DNA of 64,000 bases from Sweltsa coloradensis (taxonomy: Eukaryota; Arthropoda; Insecta; Plecoptera; Chloroperlidae): NCBI GenBank assembly GCA_024449915.1, contig JAMZAV010000912.1, positions 1-64,000 of the forward strand, read 5' to 3'. Shown here one piece after another: positions 13,974 through 48,236 of this stretch. The notes under the pieces are model-generated. The model saw only the letters and a program-made list of their open reading frames with translations. It made no database searches and was not told the origin of the DNA. Numbering within the stretch: position 1 is the stretch's first letter; each line of letters starts with the position of its first letter. The translations under genes were made by a program, and so were the position numbers.

Positions 13974-14153
13974 GTGAGTGAGTGAGTGAGTGTGTGAGTG
14001 AGTGAGTGAGTGAGTGAGTGAGTGAGTGAGTGAGTGATTGAGTGAGTGAGTGAGTGAGTGAGTGAGTGAGTGAGTGAGTGAGTGAGTGAGTGAGTGAGTG
14101 AGTGAGTGAGTGAGTGAGTGAGTGAGTGAGTGAGTGAGTGAGTGAGTGAGTGA
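13974..14153. repeat. (GAGT)n tetranucleotide microsatellite, about 180 bp
   Basis: About 45 consecutive GAGT units with only isolated interruptions (GTGT near 13991 and GATT near 14036). The low divergence implies recent slippage expansion. Confidence 0.97.
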
Positions 14154-14177
14154 GAGCAAAGATAATTCAGCCCTTAA

Positions 14178-27149: not shown

Positions 27150-27725
27150 GAAATTATAACACTTGATTACTAAATGTAATCAATTTGCATCATTTCCTAT
27201 CAATTGGCATTTTATCAATACATCATTTGACCAAATTAGTCAGCAATTAACATCACTTGACATCAACTCATTTCGATTGGCATAAATTTAATCAATTGAC
27301 AGTTTTGCAATAGATCATTAGACCAAATTAGTCAGTATTTAACATCATCTCATTTCAAATGGCTTCATTTCCTATCACTTGACTGTTTGCCAATATATCA
27401 TTTGACAAAATTAGTCAGCAATTAACATCACTTGACATCAACTCATTTCAATTGGCTTCATTTCCTATCACTTGACAGTTTGCCAAAAGATCATTTGACC
27501 AAAATACGTCAGCAATTAACATCACTTGACGTCAAATCATTTCAATTGGCTTCATTTCCTATCAATTGACAGTTTGCCAATAGATCATTTGACAAAATTA
27601 GTCAGTTATTAACATCACTTGACATCAACTCATTTCAATTGGCTTCATTTCCTATCAATTGACAGTTTGCCAATAGATCATTTGACCAAATACGTCAGCA
27701 ATTAGCATCACTTTGTATACATACA
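27150..27725. repeat. Minisatellite, about 92-bp unit, 5-6 copies
   Basis: Successive units begin GTCAGCAATTAACATCACTT at about 27239, 27331 (variant), 27413, 27507 and 27603. Each contains CATTTCAATTGGCTTCATTT and TGACAGTTTGCCAATAGATC. One unit lacks about 10 bp. Older, diverged units lead in from about 27150. A detached partial unit occurs at 28455-28555. Confidence 0.88.
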
Positions 27726-31420: not shown

Positions 31421-31612
31421 GATGCTGATGATTATTTCTGTTTCCTAACGTCTCACATTATTGCACTAAGGCTGTTCGAGACGATGAGTGGTGATTGATG
31501 ATGATGAAGGACGATTACAAAAAAAAACTTGCTCATGCGGGATTCGAGCCCTCGTCCTCGTAGAGCCATACGCTTCAGGCTAGATGCACTACCGCGATAC
31601 TATTTTCCTATA
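31421..31612 (-). mobile_element. tRNA-derived SINE, family B, copy 2
   Basis: On the minus strand GCGGTAGTGCATC (box A) and GGGCTCGAATCC (box B) lie about 45 bp apart with CTACGAGGACGA between. The body past box B matches 11341-11440. This copy retains both pol III boxes better than the one at 11 kb. Confidence 0.68.
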
Positions 31613-33285: not shown

Positions 33286-34884
33286 GTGTATTCCTGATCC
33301 CTAACACCGTAGAAACTCTCTCGTGTGAAAGATAAAATCGAGTTCACACACAGAGTCACGAGCCAACAATTGTTTGTTACGAACCAAGTAGATCTACTTC
33401 CTTCTAGTAGATGGTTAGTTCCTGATTAAAATAACTCGGTTCAGTTAAGAGTTTAACCTCCTAGGATTGATATTGGGATTCTTGATGTGGTCATTCACAT
33501 AGTTCGCGCTCACAACTTGGACCGCTCAACGATTGAGGTGAAGGCGAAACTACTCGGCACAATTTAACTTGGTTCCCTTCTAAACAATCTCATGTAATTG
33601 ATTCAGTCTGAGAACAAACCGGTAGCCCATTTATCTTCAAGTATAGTACCATCCTGCTTGGATACACTGTTTGGGCATGAACTGTAATGCCAATCGAGGG
33701 AATGAGGAGCAAAGTGTACCAAACCATCCTTTTTCATGTTTTATAAATAAATAAATACATTGATTCGTATTCGGTCTACACCAGCATTCAGATTATGGTT
33801 GCTTGTACACAAATTCAGCTCTTTGTTATTGTCTAAAGTGTGTTGATTTTATTAATCATGATGATGATGATGTTGATTGATGTGATTTATATTTTTATAT
33901 GATCAATCATCATTCTGAAATTAAATGTTCTAGCGTGGCGGCTTGGTCAGTATTACCCATATATAATTTTTGCCAATCATGGTTAGTCCAACTGATTTAC
34001 GTGAATACTATGCTCACAACTGCGGTGTAATTTTGGTCCAATTAACCATGATTTTTTTTTTAAATATTAGTAAACAATAAGTTATATTCTTGTAGTAATA
34101 ATAACATAGATATTAGGTCAAACTAAATAGTGTGAGCGTTCGTCCGCTTTCTTCCTCAACCCCTAAATGTTCAGCCTTTCGGCTAGACGTAATATTTCTT
34201 GAACATTAACGAAACCCGTGCATTATTTAAAGTGCGGTTAATGGCGCACTTAGCTGAGAAGTAATATGACGCCAGATGAATAGAAATAATGATTATAATG
34301 GCTTCAAAAGATTAACTTTTAAAACCTTTATCTCTATAGAAGCTAATCTAACATAACCTTACCCAACCCAACCTACGCCAATGCTTTTCGCGTTTTTGCT
34401 GAGTTTTGTTCAATCAATAGTAAGATAATAGGGAAAATTTGTGGGTTGTAATTTTACTCATATATGGACTTAATTAATAAGGAATATTCGTAATTGTGGT
34501 CATAAAATTGGACGGTTTGTCTGGTAGGCCAGAGATCCTCCTTCCATTGCAAAATTCCCGTGTTCTATTTCCCTATTCAGGCAGGTTATTATTTCATTCT
34601 ATCACAGACTTAATCCTTAAATAAAGCATTAGGAAGGTGCAAACAGCGATATTGGAGCCGCCCTTAGTACGAATCACATAACTAATTGATAAGTCCGGTT
34701 TATTCTGGCGTGACCCAAGAGTGAATTAAAAAATATGCACCACGTCGACTCTACTTGTTTATTTAACGATTTTAACATTCAGTTGTGAACAAAACTGATT
34801 TAGGATCGAGGTAAAAAAAATCGTGCTCAACCACCTTGTCAAATTTCTCATTTCAAATGCCGATATCTGGTTGGTTGGGTCTCG
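33286..34884. other. Non-coding stretch, nothing recognised
   Basis: There is a small ATGATG cluster near 33859. No coding or repeat structure is otherwise seen. Confidence 0.35.
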
Positions 34885-40142: not shown

Positions 40143-41208
40143 CTAGGAAAACGCTTAAGTCCCGTCGCGTTGATGGATGAGCTTTTTTTTTAAAAAAAAT
40201 TTAGTATGCGTGGGATCTCTTTACTTCTTCAAGTTCCATTGCAAAACTATTTTTGTTAAATTAGAATTATTTTTATAAAGTACTAATTGCTAGGGTAATT
40301 AGAATATCAAATATCTGTAGGCCCGAAGATTGCTTTATGAACGCATAGTAGGTGATTGTTGTCAAGTTTATATAGTTACTTGTTAATTGGATGAGCGTAG
40401 CGAGCGTAGCGAGCGAAGCGAGCGAAGCGAAGATTCCATTTCACTACACTGGAGAAAAAAATCCGGAATGTTTTTTTTTTTTTTTTTTTTTTTTTCTGTA
40501 TTTTTGTCTGTTTGTTAACACGATTCCGGCTAAACCGATACTCCGATTGCGATGAAATTTTATGGAGACCTTCGAAATCTCTGAACTTAGAACTGCCACG
40601 TTTTTGAGCGCAATCGGGAAATTTTTTCTCATAAAAAACGCAATTTTACGATTTTTTTTCGATTTTTAAAAAATTTCTTCGACTTATAACACCTACATGC
40701 TTTATCCGATTGTAATGATTTTTTCACAGAACCTTAATTTTATGAATTAAAATATTCGTGTGAAATTTGAGCGTAATCGAAAAATTATTTCTCATGAAAA
40801 TCAAAATTTTACGGGTTTTTTTTTTCTAAACCAATTCTTTGACTTGTAATTACCTACATGCTTTATCTTATTGTAATGATTTTTTCACAGAACCTTAATT
40901 TCACGAATTAATATATTCGTGTTAAATTTGAGCGCAATCGAATAATTATTTCTTATACAAATTGCAATTTTACGATTTTTTTCTTTTAAAAAATTACGAT
41001 AATTAAAAAAATTAAGTTAATTCTTTATTTTATTTTATTTAAAAATAAAAATTAAGTTAATTTTTTATTTAATTTAATTCAATTTAAAAAAATCTTCGAC
41101 TAAGTAATGATTTTTTCACAGAACAACAGAAAATCCGCGTAATATGGTGCATCTCAATGCACCATATACGCTCATCCAACAACGCGGCGGGACTTAAGCG
41201 TTTCCTAG
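40143..41208 (+). mobile_element. CTAGG-family TIR element, most complete copy
   Basis: The left end CTAGGAAAACGCTTAAGTCC continues to GTTGATGGATGAGC. The right end GCTCATCCAACAACGCGGCG ... GCGTTTCCTAG is its inverse, giving TIRs of about 40 bp over 1066 bp. Inside are a phased GAGCGTAGCGAGC block (40389-40432), a T-tract, GATTCCGGCTAAACCGATAC, GATTGCGATGAAATTTTATG and two imperfect copies of a roughly 165-bp block around TTTTTTCACAGAACCTTAAT. No transposase is present. A segment of about 205 bp (40183-40387) after the left TIR is absent from other copies. Confidence 0.78.
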
Positions 41209-42870: not shown

Positions 42871-43558
42871 CTAGGAAGCTTCGCAAACGCTTTTTCAGGC
42901 GCGTTGTTGGATGAGCGTGGTTGGTGCATTGAGCTGCCATGTGTTATGCAGATGGTTTTAAATTGATTTCGTTTTCCCATTGCTATAGCCTGCGAGACAC
43001 GCTTAGTAATATTGTTTTAATTTTTACGACGACGACATGAGGATCAGGGGCACACATTACACACTACATTGAAATCGAATAACGCATGTCGGTGTTATAA
43101 GCCGTAGAAATGTTTAAAAAACGAAAAAAGCGTAAAATTTCGATTTTCATAAGAAATAATTTTTGATTGAGTTCAAATTTCCCACGAATATATTATTAAT
43201 TCAATAAATTAAGGTTCTGTGAAAAAATCATTACAATCGGATGAAGCATGTAGGTAGGTGTTATAAGTCGAAGAAATGTTTTAAAAATCGAAAAAAAATC
43301 GTAAAATTCCAATTTTCATGACAACTAATTTTTCGATTGCGATCAAAAACGTGGCAATTCTAAGTTCAGAGATTTCGAAGGCCTCCAGAAAATTTCATCG
43401 CAAGTGGAGTATTGGTTTAGCTGGAATCGTGTTAACAAACACACAAAAATACAAACAGAAAAAAAAGAAAGAAAGAAAAAAAAACATTAAAGATTTTTTT
43501 CTCCAGTGTAGTAGAATGAAATCTTCGCTTCGCTCGCTACTCTCGCTATGCTCACCTC
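42871..43558 (-). mobile_element. CTAGG-family TIR element, inverted copy
   Basis: CTAGGAAGCTTCGCAAACGC and GGCGCGTTGTTGGATGAGCG form the TIR. The interior is the reverse complement of the 40143 element: AACCTTAATT-type sequence, TCTAAGTTCAGAGATTTCGA, AAATTTCATCGCAAG, and finally CTTCGCTTCGCTCGCTACTC. A 114-codon ORF inside is an artefact. The GAGCG-side outer TIR is not seen. Confidence 0.75.
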
Positions 43559-43732
43559 AAAATATTCGAAGATTCCATAATACGATTATATATTATCACC
43601 CTAACAATTATGTTTCTCTTAATAGTAATAATCAAAACTCATTACGAACAATGTCGGGTTGAGTGGTGTTCTTCACACCGATATCCAGGGCACGAAACTA
43701 TTTTTTGCCGAGATTGCCAGGCTCAGCGTTTC

Positions 43733-43733
<1 letters not shown>
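43559..43733. other. Flank between CTAGG element and LINE nest
   Basis: An unassigned stretch of 175 bp. It is probably the original genomic flank of the RTE-like insertion, since the (CAT)n tract starts at its right edge. Confidence 0.4.

Positions 43734-43803
<70 letters not shown>
43734..43803. repeat. (CAT)n tract at the 3' end of the RLE-type LINE
   Basis: About 23 CAT units, read as (ATG)n on the minus strand. It bounds the 3' end of the LINE at 43804-46073. A second tract of the same motif and orientation lies at the other end (46074-46149). Confidence 0.95.
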
Positions 43804-44376
43804 TTATTAGTATCTATCACATTACATTGCGTCAACCAACAATTTATCAATAACAGTTGAAGTTGTTGACTAAATATATACAAAGTTATTACAATACATT
43901 GTACATTGTTTTAAAGCATAAAACACCATACATATTGCACCGCACAACCAGCATACACATAAAACGGTAAAATTGGACAATTGTTGTTAACATATTAAAA
44001 TTAATAACAATAATCTATATCAGGTACACACAATAATACTAAAAAGTACATGCATACAATGTATAACTCCTTTGCACCGCTCAACTTGTAACAATAATAT
44101 AATACATACATACAAAACAAAATAGGTCTAAGATGAACCGTAATGTCCAATCCTATTTTTACACCATAAATCACGCAATCTCTGCGTTTGTTAAAACGAA
44201 TTAAAATATGTATACAATTAGTATTTTTTCTCTTAGTCATCAGTTGTATTGTCGATGCCCAGTTACATGTTCAATAAAATGTCTCTGCTCCACCGGATAG
44301 TGTCACTGACCATCAACTTTCTCATTAGGGTAGAGTACCTTTTTCCAATTCCAAGCATCTTCCAACCCGATCATTC

Positions 44377-44979
44377 CTAGTATCCACGATCCCAGACTAC
44401 CCACAACCACTGCTTCAACCACAGTTTCAAACCCTGGCTTCTAAGCACTTCGGCATGTGGCGTATACTTCCTGATCTTGTAATCTCGAGCAGCTAACAAG
44501 GCGTCGTCGTGGTTCTCGGCGGGTACAGTAACGTCCACTATACAAGCTTTCTTTGTTATGATGTTCGTAATAACTAGATCAGGTCTTTCCTTCAGATCGC
44601 AATTTGGAATCTTCTGATTAACTCGGATTGTGTTTGCCTGATTCCTCGGAATAGCCTTAACTAATCTGTTCAACACAGCATTATGCCTCTCTGTCCATGC
44701 AGCAGTATGATATCGACACGAGTTCAAAACATGTGGTAAAGTTTCGTGCCCATAGTCACACCGGCGACAGTTAGTAGGAGCATTTCCGTACCTCCGAGTA
44801 CCATTTAGCCCCACTGTATCTAATCGCGCCTTTGTAACAAACCGCCAGTCACAGAACCGTGTAAATCGCCCAGTTGACATGAAATGGTTACTAGCCTGAG
44901 ATTTACTAGAATGTCTATACACCTTTCCCTGGTCTGGCTTTCGAAGAAGTCTTTCTTTGTAGTTGTGACGGAGACCCAT
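44377..44979 (-). pseudogene. CCHC zinc knuckle and restriction-like endonuclease of the RLE LINE (open 200-residue segment)
   Basis: This 200-residue open segment is the C-terminus of the element's single ORF. A CCHC knuckle spans residues 71-88 (C71, C74, H83, C88, in CRRCDYGHETLPHVLNSC). It is followed by RHNAVLNRL. The endonuclease core has RPDLVI with P133-D134, then D149 in IVDVTVP, matching the PD-X(12-14)-D layout of R2-type nucleases, and a basic ARDYKIRKY block at 164-172. All listed catalytic positions are intact. In an intact element this domain nicks the target and primes reverse transcription. The initial Met is probably not a real start, because the ORF continues upstream in another frame. 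Confidence 0.82.
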
Positions 44980-46072
44980 TTCTTAGTTGGTTAGCCAAAT
45001 AGCCGCGAGCCTTTGGCGGTATAGTATGCCTATCGGGGTCCGATTTGGCATATTTATTGTAATGGCTATCTCACCTCTTGCCTCACTGTACCCCCACTGA
45101 CACCCAATGCGTGTTTGTAGCCTCCTTGTAGCATTACGTGCTCTAGTCCAAATGGAACTGAAGTCTTACTTCTACCTCCCAGATCACCAACCATGCTTCC
45201 CGAAAGGAACTGGCAACAGTCGTGGACCGTAGGTTCTCTACCAATACGTTTCCTAACTACCTCCTTTAGTGAGGACCACGCAATATCCTTACAAAGTGGA
45301 TCACTGGCCGTAAGAAGCCGAAACGGATGGCTACCGCCAGCACATCTACAGAGTCATTAGTTGGTAACAGGCCTGCACCCCCTCTGCCATGGGCATGTAC
45401 ACCACCTCTGCGCTGGCACGTCGAGGGAGTGATAGCCACCGTTTCGCGGCCGCCTTCATTTTGCGGTCAAATTTATAAAAGGCAGTCTTTCTCATCCCTC
45501 CCCCACGCATTATAAACTCAAGCCGTGGGAGGAGAAAAGTCCTTACGGCATCTAACTTCTGCCAGGGTGCTAACGGAGAAACATCAATTTTGTGTAGGTC
45601 TTCACACATTCTCTCCAGTTCAGCTACTGGCGTTTGTTGGACTCTGAATCCAGTAGGAACGCCCAGATGCTGGTACGCCTCCCCATCGTTCAATGCTTTC
45701 ATGAGAGGAATACAGTTGGAAGCGTATCTCGTGTTTTTCTGCAGTCGATACTTAGCGAAGCACACTTTTTTGGGTTAAATGTCAGTCCTGCCCCACTTGG
45801 CTGCATCCCCAGCTACCCTCAAAAGACGTCGTAGAGCCAATTCATTTTTAGCTGCTAAAACAAAGTCATCGGCATAGGCCAGTATGGAAATCGATTGACT
45901 ATGAATTTCAGCCCCACAACTATCACTTAAGTTGGTAATCGCTCTAATGATTGGCTCAATAGCAAGATTAAACAGAATTGGGCTTAGCGGGCACCCTTGT
46001 TTCACTCCAGCTTTGAGCTCAATATCATTTGTATAGCCTTGACCTGTTCTAACTCTAGTAACACTTCCATGG

Positions 46073-46073
<1 letters not shown>
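44980..46073 (-). pseudogene. Reverse transcriptase palm/thumb of the RLE LINE (broken)
   Basis: From the (ATG)n junction the reading gives GVKQGCPLSPILFNLAIEP, then the catalytic LAYADDFVLAAK (YADD at 45865-45876). It continues into a thumb with LGVPTGFRVQQTPVAELE and PLAPWQKLDAVRTFLLPRLE (about 45500-45690), which is characteristic of R2-like elements. Near 45345 the frame shifts; continuation is recognisable as HPFRLLTASDPLCKDI in another frame. Fingers and the upstream RT motifs are absent, so the piece cannot make a functional enzyme. No promoter or start is present. Confidence 0.8.

Positions 46074-46149
<76 letters not shown>
46074..46149. repeat. (CAT)n tract, 3' tail of the RTE-like LINE
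   Basis: About 25 CAT units, (ATG)n on the minus strand. The last codons of the RTE-like ORF run into it through GATGAAGATGACGATG. It also forms the 5' border of the RLE-type element. Confidence 0.95.
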
Positions 46150-46150
<1 letters not shown>

Positions 46151-48236
46151 GTCATCTTCATCCTGCATCATCTGCTTCTCCACCAATTTTCTCCACTCCT
46201 TCCTGTCCTCCCACACTTCCCTTTCATCACCTGGTTCCTCGATTCACCTCTCTCTTCAACGTCTCCTTCGATCAATTCCCCATCTTTCTCTCGGTCTTCC
46301 TATACTTTCTTTTACCTTCCTCCCCTGCTTCGAATTATCGTCTTGGGATCTTATATCCATATCCACCCTCTTTATATGCCCAAACCATCGTAAACGTTCC
46401 CTTCCTATTTTAAACCTCAACTTCTCCAGACCTAATTCCTTTCTTATAACGTCGCTTCTAATCCTGTCCAGTTTTGTAACTCCCTTTATACTTCTCAAAA
46501 ACTTCATCTCTGCTGCTTCCACTGACTCTCTTCCTTTGATCCAACTGTCCAAAGTTACGCACCGTAAGTAAGTATAGGTATGAAGTATGCTTTATAGAAA
46601 AGAACCTTGCATCTCTGTGGAAACAGCTCGTTCCAAAAGCAGCTTTCGCACCAGTTTGATAAAATCCTTCGGCTTTTTGTACCCTAGCTGTTACTTCTCT
46701 ATTTACTTTAGCATCTTTTGTCAAGATACTTCCTAGGTACTTAAATTCTTCCTTTTCTTCTAATAATTTTCCACGAAGTCTTAACTTTTCTTGATTCTTA
46801 GGAATGCCTTTATATCCTTTTTCATAACTAAACATTAACTTTTATTCTGACTAATACTTAACCCAAATTCTGTTGCAACTACATTCCATCTATCCACCTT
46901 TTCTTGCACCTCTTCAACACTCTCACCCCAAATTAAGACATCATCGGCAAAAACTAAGGTTCTAGTGTCTCTTCCGTCTATATTGGGTTTCCACTCTTCG
47001 TAGTATTTGATCCATTACGACAGTAAATAGAGTCGGTGATAAAACACTACCTTGCCTCAGTCCCTCATTAATTTCAAACCAATCTGATCTACCCTCATTT
47101 GTCTGAACACAACTTGCACTCCCTACGTATGTACTTTTTATCCTCTCTATCAAACCTCGTCCAACTTCCTTTTGCTCCAGACATTCCCATACTTTTCCTC
47201 GAGGCAGGCGATCGTATGCCTTTTCAAGATCTAAAAAGGGCAATATGCATTCCTTTTCCATTTTCCCATCTCTTTTCCATGATTTGGCGGATAGAAAATA
47301 TTGGATCGATAGTGGATCGCCCACTTCTAAATCCATATTGTTCCTCTCTTAGACTTGGTTCGACAACCTCCTTCAATCTATGTTCTATTACCTTTTCAAA
47401 AACTTTAGCACACTGACACATAAGGGTTACTCCTCTATAGTTTTTGACACTTCTTCCTATCACCTTTTTTAAACAAGGGTACAATAATTCCTTTCTTCCA
47501 ATCTTCTGGGACTTTCTTTTGCTTCCAGGCTGCACTAATTACTCGGAATAACCATAACTTTCCTTCAGCGCCGGCTGATTTAATCATTTCCACTGTAATT
47601 CCATCCACTCCTGGAGCTCTACCATTCTTCATTGCTCCTAGCGCACGTCCCACCTCTTGTTCATTACCTCTATCTCCTCATCTTCTTCACTCTTTTCTAT
47701 TTCTATTTCTTCCGAATTTGATATTGGTGTTACATTCAATAGGTCTTGTGAAATACTCTCTCCACATGTCTTGTATTTCCTGTAGATTATTAGTGACTTC
47801 TCCATTATTATTTACCATAAGCTTTTGATCCTCTGTTTGCTGTCTTTTTGACTTTACCAATCCATAAATCATTTTCTTGTTCCCCTGAAAATCAGTTCTA
47901 GCTTACTAGCAAATTCTTTCATTGTTCTATCTTTTTCCTCTATCACAATTTGTTTCACAGCTGCCTTGCACCTACGGTACTCATATTCATGTTCTTCAGA
48001 CTTGTCATCTTCTTTCTTCTTCATGCACGCTTCTTCTCCCTTACTGCAGTCTGTACCCTGTCATTCCCCATCGAGTTTCTTTCTCCTTCCTTCTCCCACT
48101 GGCCCCTTCCACACAACTCCTCTGCACTTGACACAAACACCTTCTTAAACTCTTGCCATTCTTCTTCTCCATCTTTCATTCTTGGTCGGGCATCTGATTA
48201 CTTATTCTTGTCATAAACTCCTTTCTTAATTCTGGA
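46150..48236 (-). mobile_element. RTE-like non-LTR retrotransposon, 5'-truncated
   Basis: On the minus strand the element runs from the end of the endonuclease/linker region through RT to a GRPRERW-type C-terminus and an (ATG)n tail. RT blocks include APGVDGITVEM, NYRGVTLMCQCAKVFEKV, GFRSGRSTIDPIF, GLRQGSVLSPTLFTVVMD and VFADDV (FADD at 46940-46951). The style is that of RTE-clade elements. The endonuclease N-terminus is absent. AT-rich DNA begins at about 48237. At least five frame changes show it is dead. Confidence 0.82.
46150..48236 (-). pseudogene. ORF of the RTE-like LINE (linker, RT, C-terminal domain; broken)
   Basis: In order on the minus strand: a linker with AAEELCG-like and AVREKK blocks (about 48190-47990); a charged stretch at 47872-47690; RT fingers at 47653-47435; GFRSGRSTID at about 47340; DLEKAYDRLPRG and LRQGSVLSP (47240-47040); and FADD (46951). 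There follows FKYLGSILTKDAKVNREVT (about 46740) and a C-terminal LRWFGHIKRVDMD with GRPRERW (about 46390-46270). The product would be a reverse transcriptase with an APE endonuclease, but the nuclease is missing and stops or frameshifts lie between the blocks. Confidence 0.8.

Follow-up and report, generated by a model that had tools for sequence, protein, structure and literature searches.

The window, that is, the whole 64,000-nucleotide stretch that was analysed, contains a 5'-truncated RLE-type LINE, hereafter E, which lies inside a second, RTE-like LINE and is bordered on both sides by a triplet repeat. From left to right, the locus comprises:

43,620-43,733 (outer limit approximate), minus strand: remainder of the RTE-like LINE past the tract, with the EETLSLAISAKNSFVP codons, a short 3' UTR and the start of an (ATT)n tail.
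43,734-43,803, plus strand: 3'-side target tract, (TCA)23, equal to (ATG)n on the element strand, 100% matches.
43,804-46,073, minus strand: element E, RLE-type LINE, 5'-truncated; genome copies are 93-100% identical to it over the 3' 597 bp.
43,804 and 46,073, minus strand: ends of E in the window, the 3' end and the 5' truncation point, respectively, the latter within the reverse transcriptase (RT) domain.
44,377-44,982, minus strand: C-terminal ORF of E, with a CCHC knuckle (CX2CX8HX4C) and an RLE motif (PD-X14-D), from translation and R2 structure alignment.
45,066-45,353 and 45,346-45,774, minus strand: coding region of E past the RT palm, in two broken frames, parts of which match the 801-amino-acid ORF of genome copy L039.
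45,775-46,073, minus strand: RT fragment of E (GVKQGCPLSP, YADD), Pfam RVT_1 7e-12.
46,075-46,149, plus strand: 5'-side target tract, (CAT)25, equal to (ATG)n on the element strand; poly-Asp codons of the RTE-like ORF.
46,150-48,200 (outer limit approximate), minus strand: 5' portion of the host RTE-like LINE, ending at the poly-Asp tract (EKQMMQDED...).

The window copy of E is frame-broken into several ORFs. Pfam detected a partial RVT_1 domain on the minus strand at 45,775-46,074 (7e-12), and the C-terminal ORF displays CRRC..H....C followed by PD-X14-D, which in RLE LINEs are the knuckle and the endonuclease motif; a zf-RVT match in this ORF was sub-threshold (Pfam, 0.0018; 19.3 bits vs a cut-off of 27.5). 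Knuckle spacing in RLE LINEs is given as CX2-3CX7-8HX4C in the accessible text of PMC5678591. Elsewhere in the genome, copy L039 has retained an uninterrupted 801-amino-acid ORF, in which RT is followed by the knuckle and the RLE in one frame. When compared with the PDB, this ORF matched R2 proteins over RT and RLE (9nl3, 6.6e-72; 9dou, 1.2e-71; 8gh6, which we take to be R2Bm, 1.7e-49), and the R2 structures align over the stretch of the L039 ORF equivalent to the window's C-terminal ORF (44,377-44,982). Full-length copies in the same genome measure ~5.0 kb and share, exactly or nearly, the 5' start CGGCTGTCGGC. The N-terminus of E carries a C2H2-like motif, CHEC...HLRRYH, identified by pattern match in copy L043; Pfam returned no domain match for the N-terminal region. 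No HDV-like 5' ribozyme was found in L038, L039 or L043 (Rfam, E<=1), the only matches being two snoRNA matches below gathering scores within the ATG repeat. We conclude that E is an RLE-encoding non-LTR retrotransposon, with RT, then CCHC knuckle and PD..D RLE, in one ORF; the motifs and the R2 homology of the L039 ORF thereby bear out the RLE-type identity assigned to E in the original prediction.

That prediction had also placed E between two (CAT)n tracts of the same orientation, the right-hand one continuous with the RTE-like element, and both statements proved correct: (TCA)n occupies 43,734-43,803, (CAT)n spans 46,075-46,172 at 91% matches and is pure up to 46,149, and the right tract runs on into the RTE-like ORF, which contains RVT_1 at 46,962-47,348 (Pfam, 1.3e-13). 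The host LINE is presumably an RTE, judging from its C-terminal motif and from the earlier reader, with Pfam supporting RVT_1 only. To the left of E, the flank (~43,620-43,733) corresponds to the last 16 codons and the 3' end of the RTE-like LINE, and E therefore interrupts the RTE-like element instead of following its tail. Within the 64 kb, pure (ATG)n of more than five units is confined to the two tracts flanking E. The remaining tracts of at least four units are found at 31,496-31,507 and 33,858-33,872, and in the window outside 43,601-46,300, 67 of 61,300 bases are within 10 nt of a tract of at least four units. The two tracts flanking E are not window background. Other repeats in the window include a (GTGA)45 array (13,974-14,154, 97% matches), a ~93-bp tandem array (27,260-27,713) and, to the left of E, an inverted repeat pair (40,471-40,696 and 43,254-43,479) with 226-nt arms that are 89% complementary and ~2.6 kb apart.

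Copies of E were collected by searching the same assembly (1.45 Gb) with the 3' 597 bp of the element. Scoring of the best 40 of 275 candidates yielded 42 matches with 93-100% identity, and the 3' junctions of all of them were read (30 loci, two neighbouring copies and ten further copies). Because these matches are the best-scoring of 275 candidates, old copies are under-sampled. All 42 have an ATG-type triplet repeat at the E 3' end. The exact end ACTAATAA is present in 39 of the 42, followed by ATGATG in 36 and by ATAATG in 3. As for the three deviant ends, L005 is devoid of the last 8-12 nt and both L061 and L067 have altered last bases; all three continue in GATGATG-type sequence, imperfect in L061. 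At the junctions, pure tract length varies from three units (L013, with an RTE-like flank) to more than 30 (L030), several tracts being impure. (AAT)n is present near some copies (L038, L039, L020), yet their junctions are at ATG. An older copy in L041 (86-91%) also ends in ATG-type repeats, with an RTE-like piece beyond. The shortened 3' end of L005, and that of the upstream copy in L032, shorter by ~93 nt, are joined straight to (ATG)n, as if priming had occurred from an internal site.

The 5' side was analysed in the 25 copies whose 5' end lay in the fetched DNA. This set leaves out L008/L037 (5' side = N), L022, L023 (whose 5' end was read separately as L070), L024, L025, L028, L029 and the first copy of L030, together with the ten copies with a 3' junction only, the upstream partial copy of L032 and the old copy of L041. 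In 18 of the 25 copies, a sense-strand tract of at least four ATG units ends no more than 12 nt from the 5' break, vs 14 of 24,700 control positions drawn from the outermost parts of the fetched loci. Near misses are L050, at 19 nt (through ACGATG units), and L035b, at 25 nt; in L050 the impure host repeat, made of ACGATG blocks, runs on past both E ends. L042 has no (ATG)n on the 5' side, and L034 has none on that side within 400 nt. An 843-bp flanking duplication in L034, with arms of only 95% identity, was rejected as a sure target-site duplication, since the repeat may have been there before E. Over 148 bp (99.3%) in L041 and 248 bp (97.2%) in L047, the sequence 5' of E is a second copy of that on the 3' side, starting in (ATG)n in both cases, and direct reading of L027 revealed a flanking duplication including the tract; we read these three as long target-site duplications. 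Of 15 5' breaks, 11 could be scored, and at these the repeat extends into E for 1.9 nt on average vs 0.38 at random.

Full-length 5' ends behave similarly. All 38 candidates of a 5'-end search were scored, of which 27 rows start at query position 6 or lower. Twelve full-length ends were examined (L038 and L039, also among the 25, and ten others), and 9 of them have at least four ATG units within 12 nt; L076 has an interrupted ATG repeat. In L069 and L077 (contigs C9999 and C7880), sequence resembling the internal RT region of E lies upstream of the 5' end, with 45 identical bases in both, which points to an E subfamily with a rearrangement, or to a duplication common to the two loci. Thus, among the copies examined, E 5' ends, full-length or truncated, mostly join an (ATG)n-kind tract. 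The original prediction had named two outcomes that would speak against it, namely most copies lying in non-microsatellite sites, or an (ATG)n repeat belonging to the element's own 3' UTR with no tract on the 5' side. Neither was observed, given the 42 of 42 best-scoring 3' ends in ATG-type tracts and the 5' tracts of the 18 copies.

Sites without E were sought with the two window flanks, 43,634-43,733 (100 bp; best 40 of 1,328 candidates) and 46,174-46,400 (227 bp; best 40 of 1,373). In 15 of the 40 RTE-like matches listed, the two flanks are co-oriented and 43-148 nt apart, with no E between them; a sixteenth pair (C298, gap 7,940) was dropped, as it joins two neighbouring copies. E is present downstream, in the same orientation, in 5 of the 40 (C912, which is the window and the query copy itself, C5613, C1589, C1371 and C59), and the remaining 20 displayed neither the empty nor the filled state among the matches listed. 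Seven empty sites were fetched (L051-L057, on contigs C798, C625, C302, C170, C1, C478 and C80), and all seven read flank-tract-flank, ...CAGGATGAAGATGACGATGATG(ATG)nAAGAAACGCTGAGCC..., i.e. the window's flanks with the tract alone between them. Translated in frame, they give KQMMQDE(D)nEETLSLA..., with 8, 10, 12, 13, 14, 35 and 43 Asp residues; in all seven the poly-Asp run is in frame and just upstream of the C-terminus, and constitutes a length-variable coding microsatellite in a LINE. A TAG codon is located 16 codons past the Asp run in five of the seven readable RTE-like copies that flank E, and is replaced by TGG in the window and by CAG in L016/L045, where the frame runs four codons more to TGA. 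Beyond the coding end lie a short 3' UTR and then (ATT)n. Since the tract is read in frame as Asp, 16 codons before the usual stop, the pad is a translatable poly-Asp tract near the ORF end, not a tail. The original placement of E inside the tail of an RTE-like LINE is therefore right as to the host and wrong as to the tail. Because the pad is internal to the RTE-like ORF, both flanks of E in the window are RTE.

Taken together, these data show that, in the copies examined, the ATG strand is the one in which E reads as sense, the position of the 3' junction hardly varies and the tract pre-exists at empty paralogous sites. Among these copies, E has the same repeat on both flanks and at empty sites, as befits a microsatellite-specific non-LTR retrotransposon, with exceptions that include L042, L034, L069 and L077 on the 5' side and the deviant 3' ends of L005, L061 and L067. 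The (ATG)n specificity first proposed from the window thus extends to the copies examined, in 42 of 42 3' ends, 18 of 25 5' ends and 7 of 7 fetched empty sites. We are highly confident that E is a non-LTR retrotransposon with target specificity, landing in (ATG)n in one orientation, with targets partly supplied by other repeats. By analogy with R2-type target-primed reverse transcription, the RLE would nick the (CAT)n strand, and the freed (CAT)n end would pair with the E RNA 3' end (UAAUAAAUG) and prime reverse transcription; it is this pairing that would account for the near-fixed 3' junction and for the one-orientation rule. A second-strand cut in the same tract would leave (ATG)n on both flanks, and a cut further downstream would generate a duplication of ~150-250 bp containing the tract. 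The 5' end of the cDNA would be joined through short ATG microhomology. Targets come in part from the poly-Asp-coding (GAT)n of the abundant RTE-like LINE, from two further repeat families and from the tracts beside E copies, use of the latter giving rise to head-to-tail stacks.

Clustering of the first 30 loci by 3' flank indicates how these sources contribute. The RTE-like piece is the flank in 7 loci, window included, two further repeat families account for 4 each, E itself is the flank in L006, L009, L024 and L030, which are head-to-tail stacks, and the other loci fall in no cluster. The repeat shared by L004, L007, L022 and L026 was considered as a SINE, a reading that was discarded as no tRNA was found in it, and the repeat is treated here as unclassified. 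Contig C4043 (40,161-51,270) bears three co-oriented E 5' ends, 5,745 and 5,064 bp apart and 86-90% identical to the query; older E copies of nearly full length are probably stacked there. The proposal that E uses the tracts of other LINEs as landing pads holds for the RTE-like pads, which are a partial supply next to E's own copies, other repeats and unclassified tracts. A narrower reading is that E is a hyperparasite specialised on the RTE-like family, whose poly-Asp tract it would favour more than the tract's share of all (ATG)n would predict. The RTE 3' flank in 7 of the 30 first-fetched loci, and the presence of E in 5 of the 40 RTE-like matches listed, one being the query copy itself, agree with such a specialisation, but a different sequence, in some cases E itself or another repeat, follows the 3' end in the other 23 loci, and we regard such a specialisation as rather improbable.

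Two further explanations dispense with targeting of (ATG)n. In the first, the 3' (ATG)n would be the transcribed tail of E, as in RTE and other LINEs, insertion would proceed without preference, and the 5' tract would be a chance neighbour or a duplicate of the tail. The nearly constant phase of the 3' junction is what a transcribed tail would produce; however, tracts at the 5' side are far more frequent than at the control positions, the impure host repeat of L050 continues on both sides, and the tract without E in all seven fetched RTE-like sites contradicts this explanation, making it very unlikely. Least likely of all is that E was there first and received the RTE-like element as an insertion, or that recombination of tracts placed (ATG)n on either side of E secondarily: (ATG)n tracts may recombine and E-E stacks exist, but E is bracketed by RTE-like sequence in the window, L041, L045, C59 (L025), C5613 (L027) and C1371 (L028), and E 5' ends differ among these hosts, as expected for independent E insertions and not for the converse.

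 As the pad lies in the RTE-like ORF near its 3' end, each insertion of the RTE-like LINE that retains the 3' end would, if this holds true, sow a new E site. We give even chances to the broader proposal that E persists on a target made by retroelements, with the expandable RTE-like poly-Asp run as a main renewable pad and E insertions leaving (ATG)n for self-stacking, in a two-LINE food chain whose resource is a coding microsatellite. No earlier report of an (ATG)n-specific LINE was found in the literature covered, to which neither Repbase nor most subscription papers belonged (among the latter Kojima and Fujiwara 2004, which deals with microsatellite targets). Three features are new as far as these searches show: the specificity for (ATG)n, the role of another LINE's coding poly-Asp tract as a pad, and a niche of two elements that can be read directly. 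These results add (ATG)n to the known microsatellite targets of LINEs. With its many near-identical copies and readable empty sites, E is a clean natural system, in which one can ask how an RLE LINE recognizes a simple repeat, where the top-strand cut is placed, and whether the coding repeat of one transposon family can keep another going.

To which clade does E belong? An RT tree of 37 rows sets the three PDB R2 proteins apart in one group (99/96) and joins E to P0004 (100/99), the deeper forks being mostly without resolution. Of the 120 relatives listed from 678, all but a 97% identical fragment are 39-56% identical, and the named relatives among the matches listed come mainly from arthropods, nematodes and turtles, ants and reptiles included. 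Three protein-database searches (up to 120 matches listed per search) contained no labelled R4, Dong, NeSL or HERO protein, and database names such as 'R2' are automatic annotations. No relative with DNA context was confirmed in the viral contigs or genome contigs scanned with P0001. By a loose pattern, a C2H2-like N-terminal motif is present in 63 out of the 94 relatives that are 1,050 amino acids or longer; the match in P0138 is clearly the CCHC knuckle, and incomplete 5' ends may explain many of the 31 misses.

The known systems are compared here from the accessible portions of the papers cited. Microsatellite-specific RLE LINEs have already been described, namely Dong, Togen and some HERO families (PMC4640811, PMC3636483, PMC7998251). 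R2, including R2Tg (9dou), resembles E in RT and RLE homology, and differs in forming a separate group in the RT tree. Utopia has one to three N-terminal zinc fingers, RT, and a C-terminal zinc finger with RLE, and occasionally, for Utopia-1_NVit, inserts in tandem (PMC4640811); a U2 snRNA gene lies at its 3' flank. E is similar in its N-terminal finger-like motif (one clear in E, by pattern), RT, C-terminal zinc finger, RLE and tandem insertion, and unlike Utopia/NeSL it gave no protease or RNase H domain match in P0001 or P0002. Ants, reptiles and nematodes are also named in the Utopia/NeSL paper (PMC4640811). The fish Togen families, placed near the NeSL clade, likewise target a microsatellite, (TG)n instead of (ATG)n (PMC4640811). 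All 42 E 3' flanks examined begin with ATG-type repeats, in contrast to the U2 snRNA gene of Utopia and the 28S rDNA of R2. In Lepidoptera, RTE elements spread an ATG-type SSR with their insertions, as the RTE-like LINE does here, but that repeat follows the stop codon, whereas the (GAT)n of the present LINE precedes the stop and encodes poly-Asp; the accessible part of PMC2887409 describes no second LINE using the SSR.

R4/Dong elements have a Myb-like domain and no zinc fingers (PMC7998251), in contrast to E with its N-terminal C2H2-like motif. Because of this motif, the R4/Dong architecture misfits and that of Utopia/NeSL (PMC4640811) fits better. Membership of E in R4/Dong is thus not supported, and its architecture is consistent with a closer relation to Utopia/NeSL, an architecture that is not exclusive to this clade, which had no labelled members in the RT comparison. 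The R4/Dong likeness suggested originally is therefore functional and does not extend to architecture. Dong is, as E, an RLE-type LINE with a triplet microsatellite target, (TAA)n (PMC7998251, PMC3774820, PMC2887409), used in most insects (PMC7998251). E differs from Dong in targeting (ATG)n, at all 42 3' flanks examined, and in that some of its pads are the coding poly-Asp DNA of another LINE.
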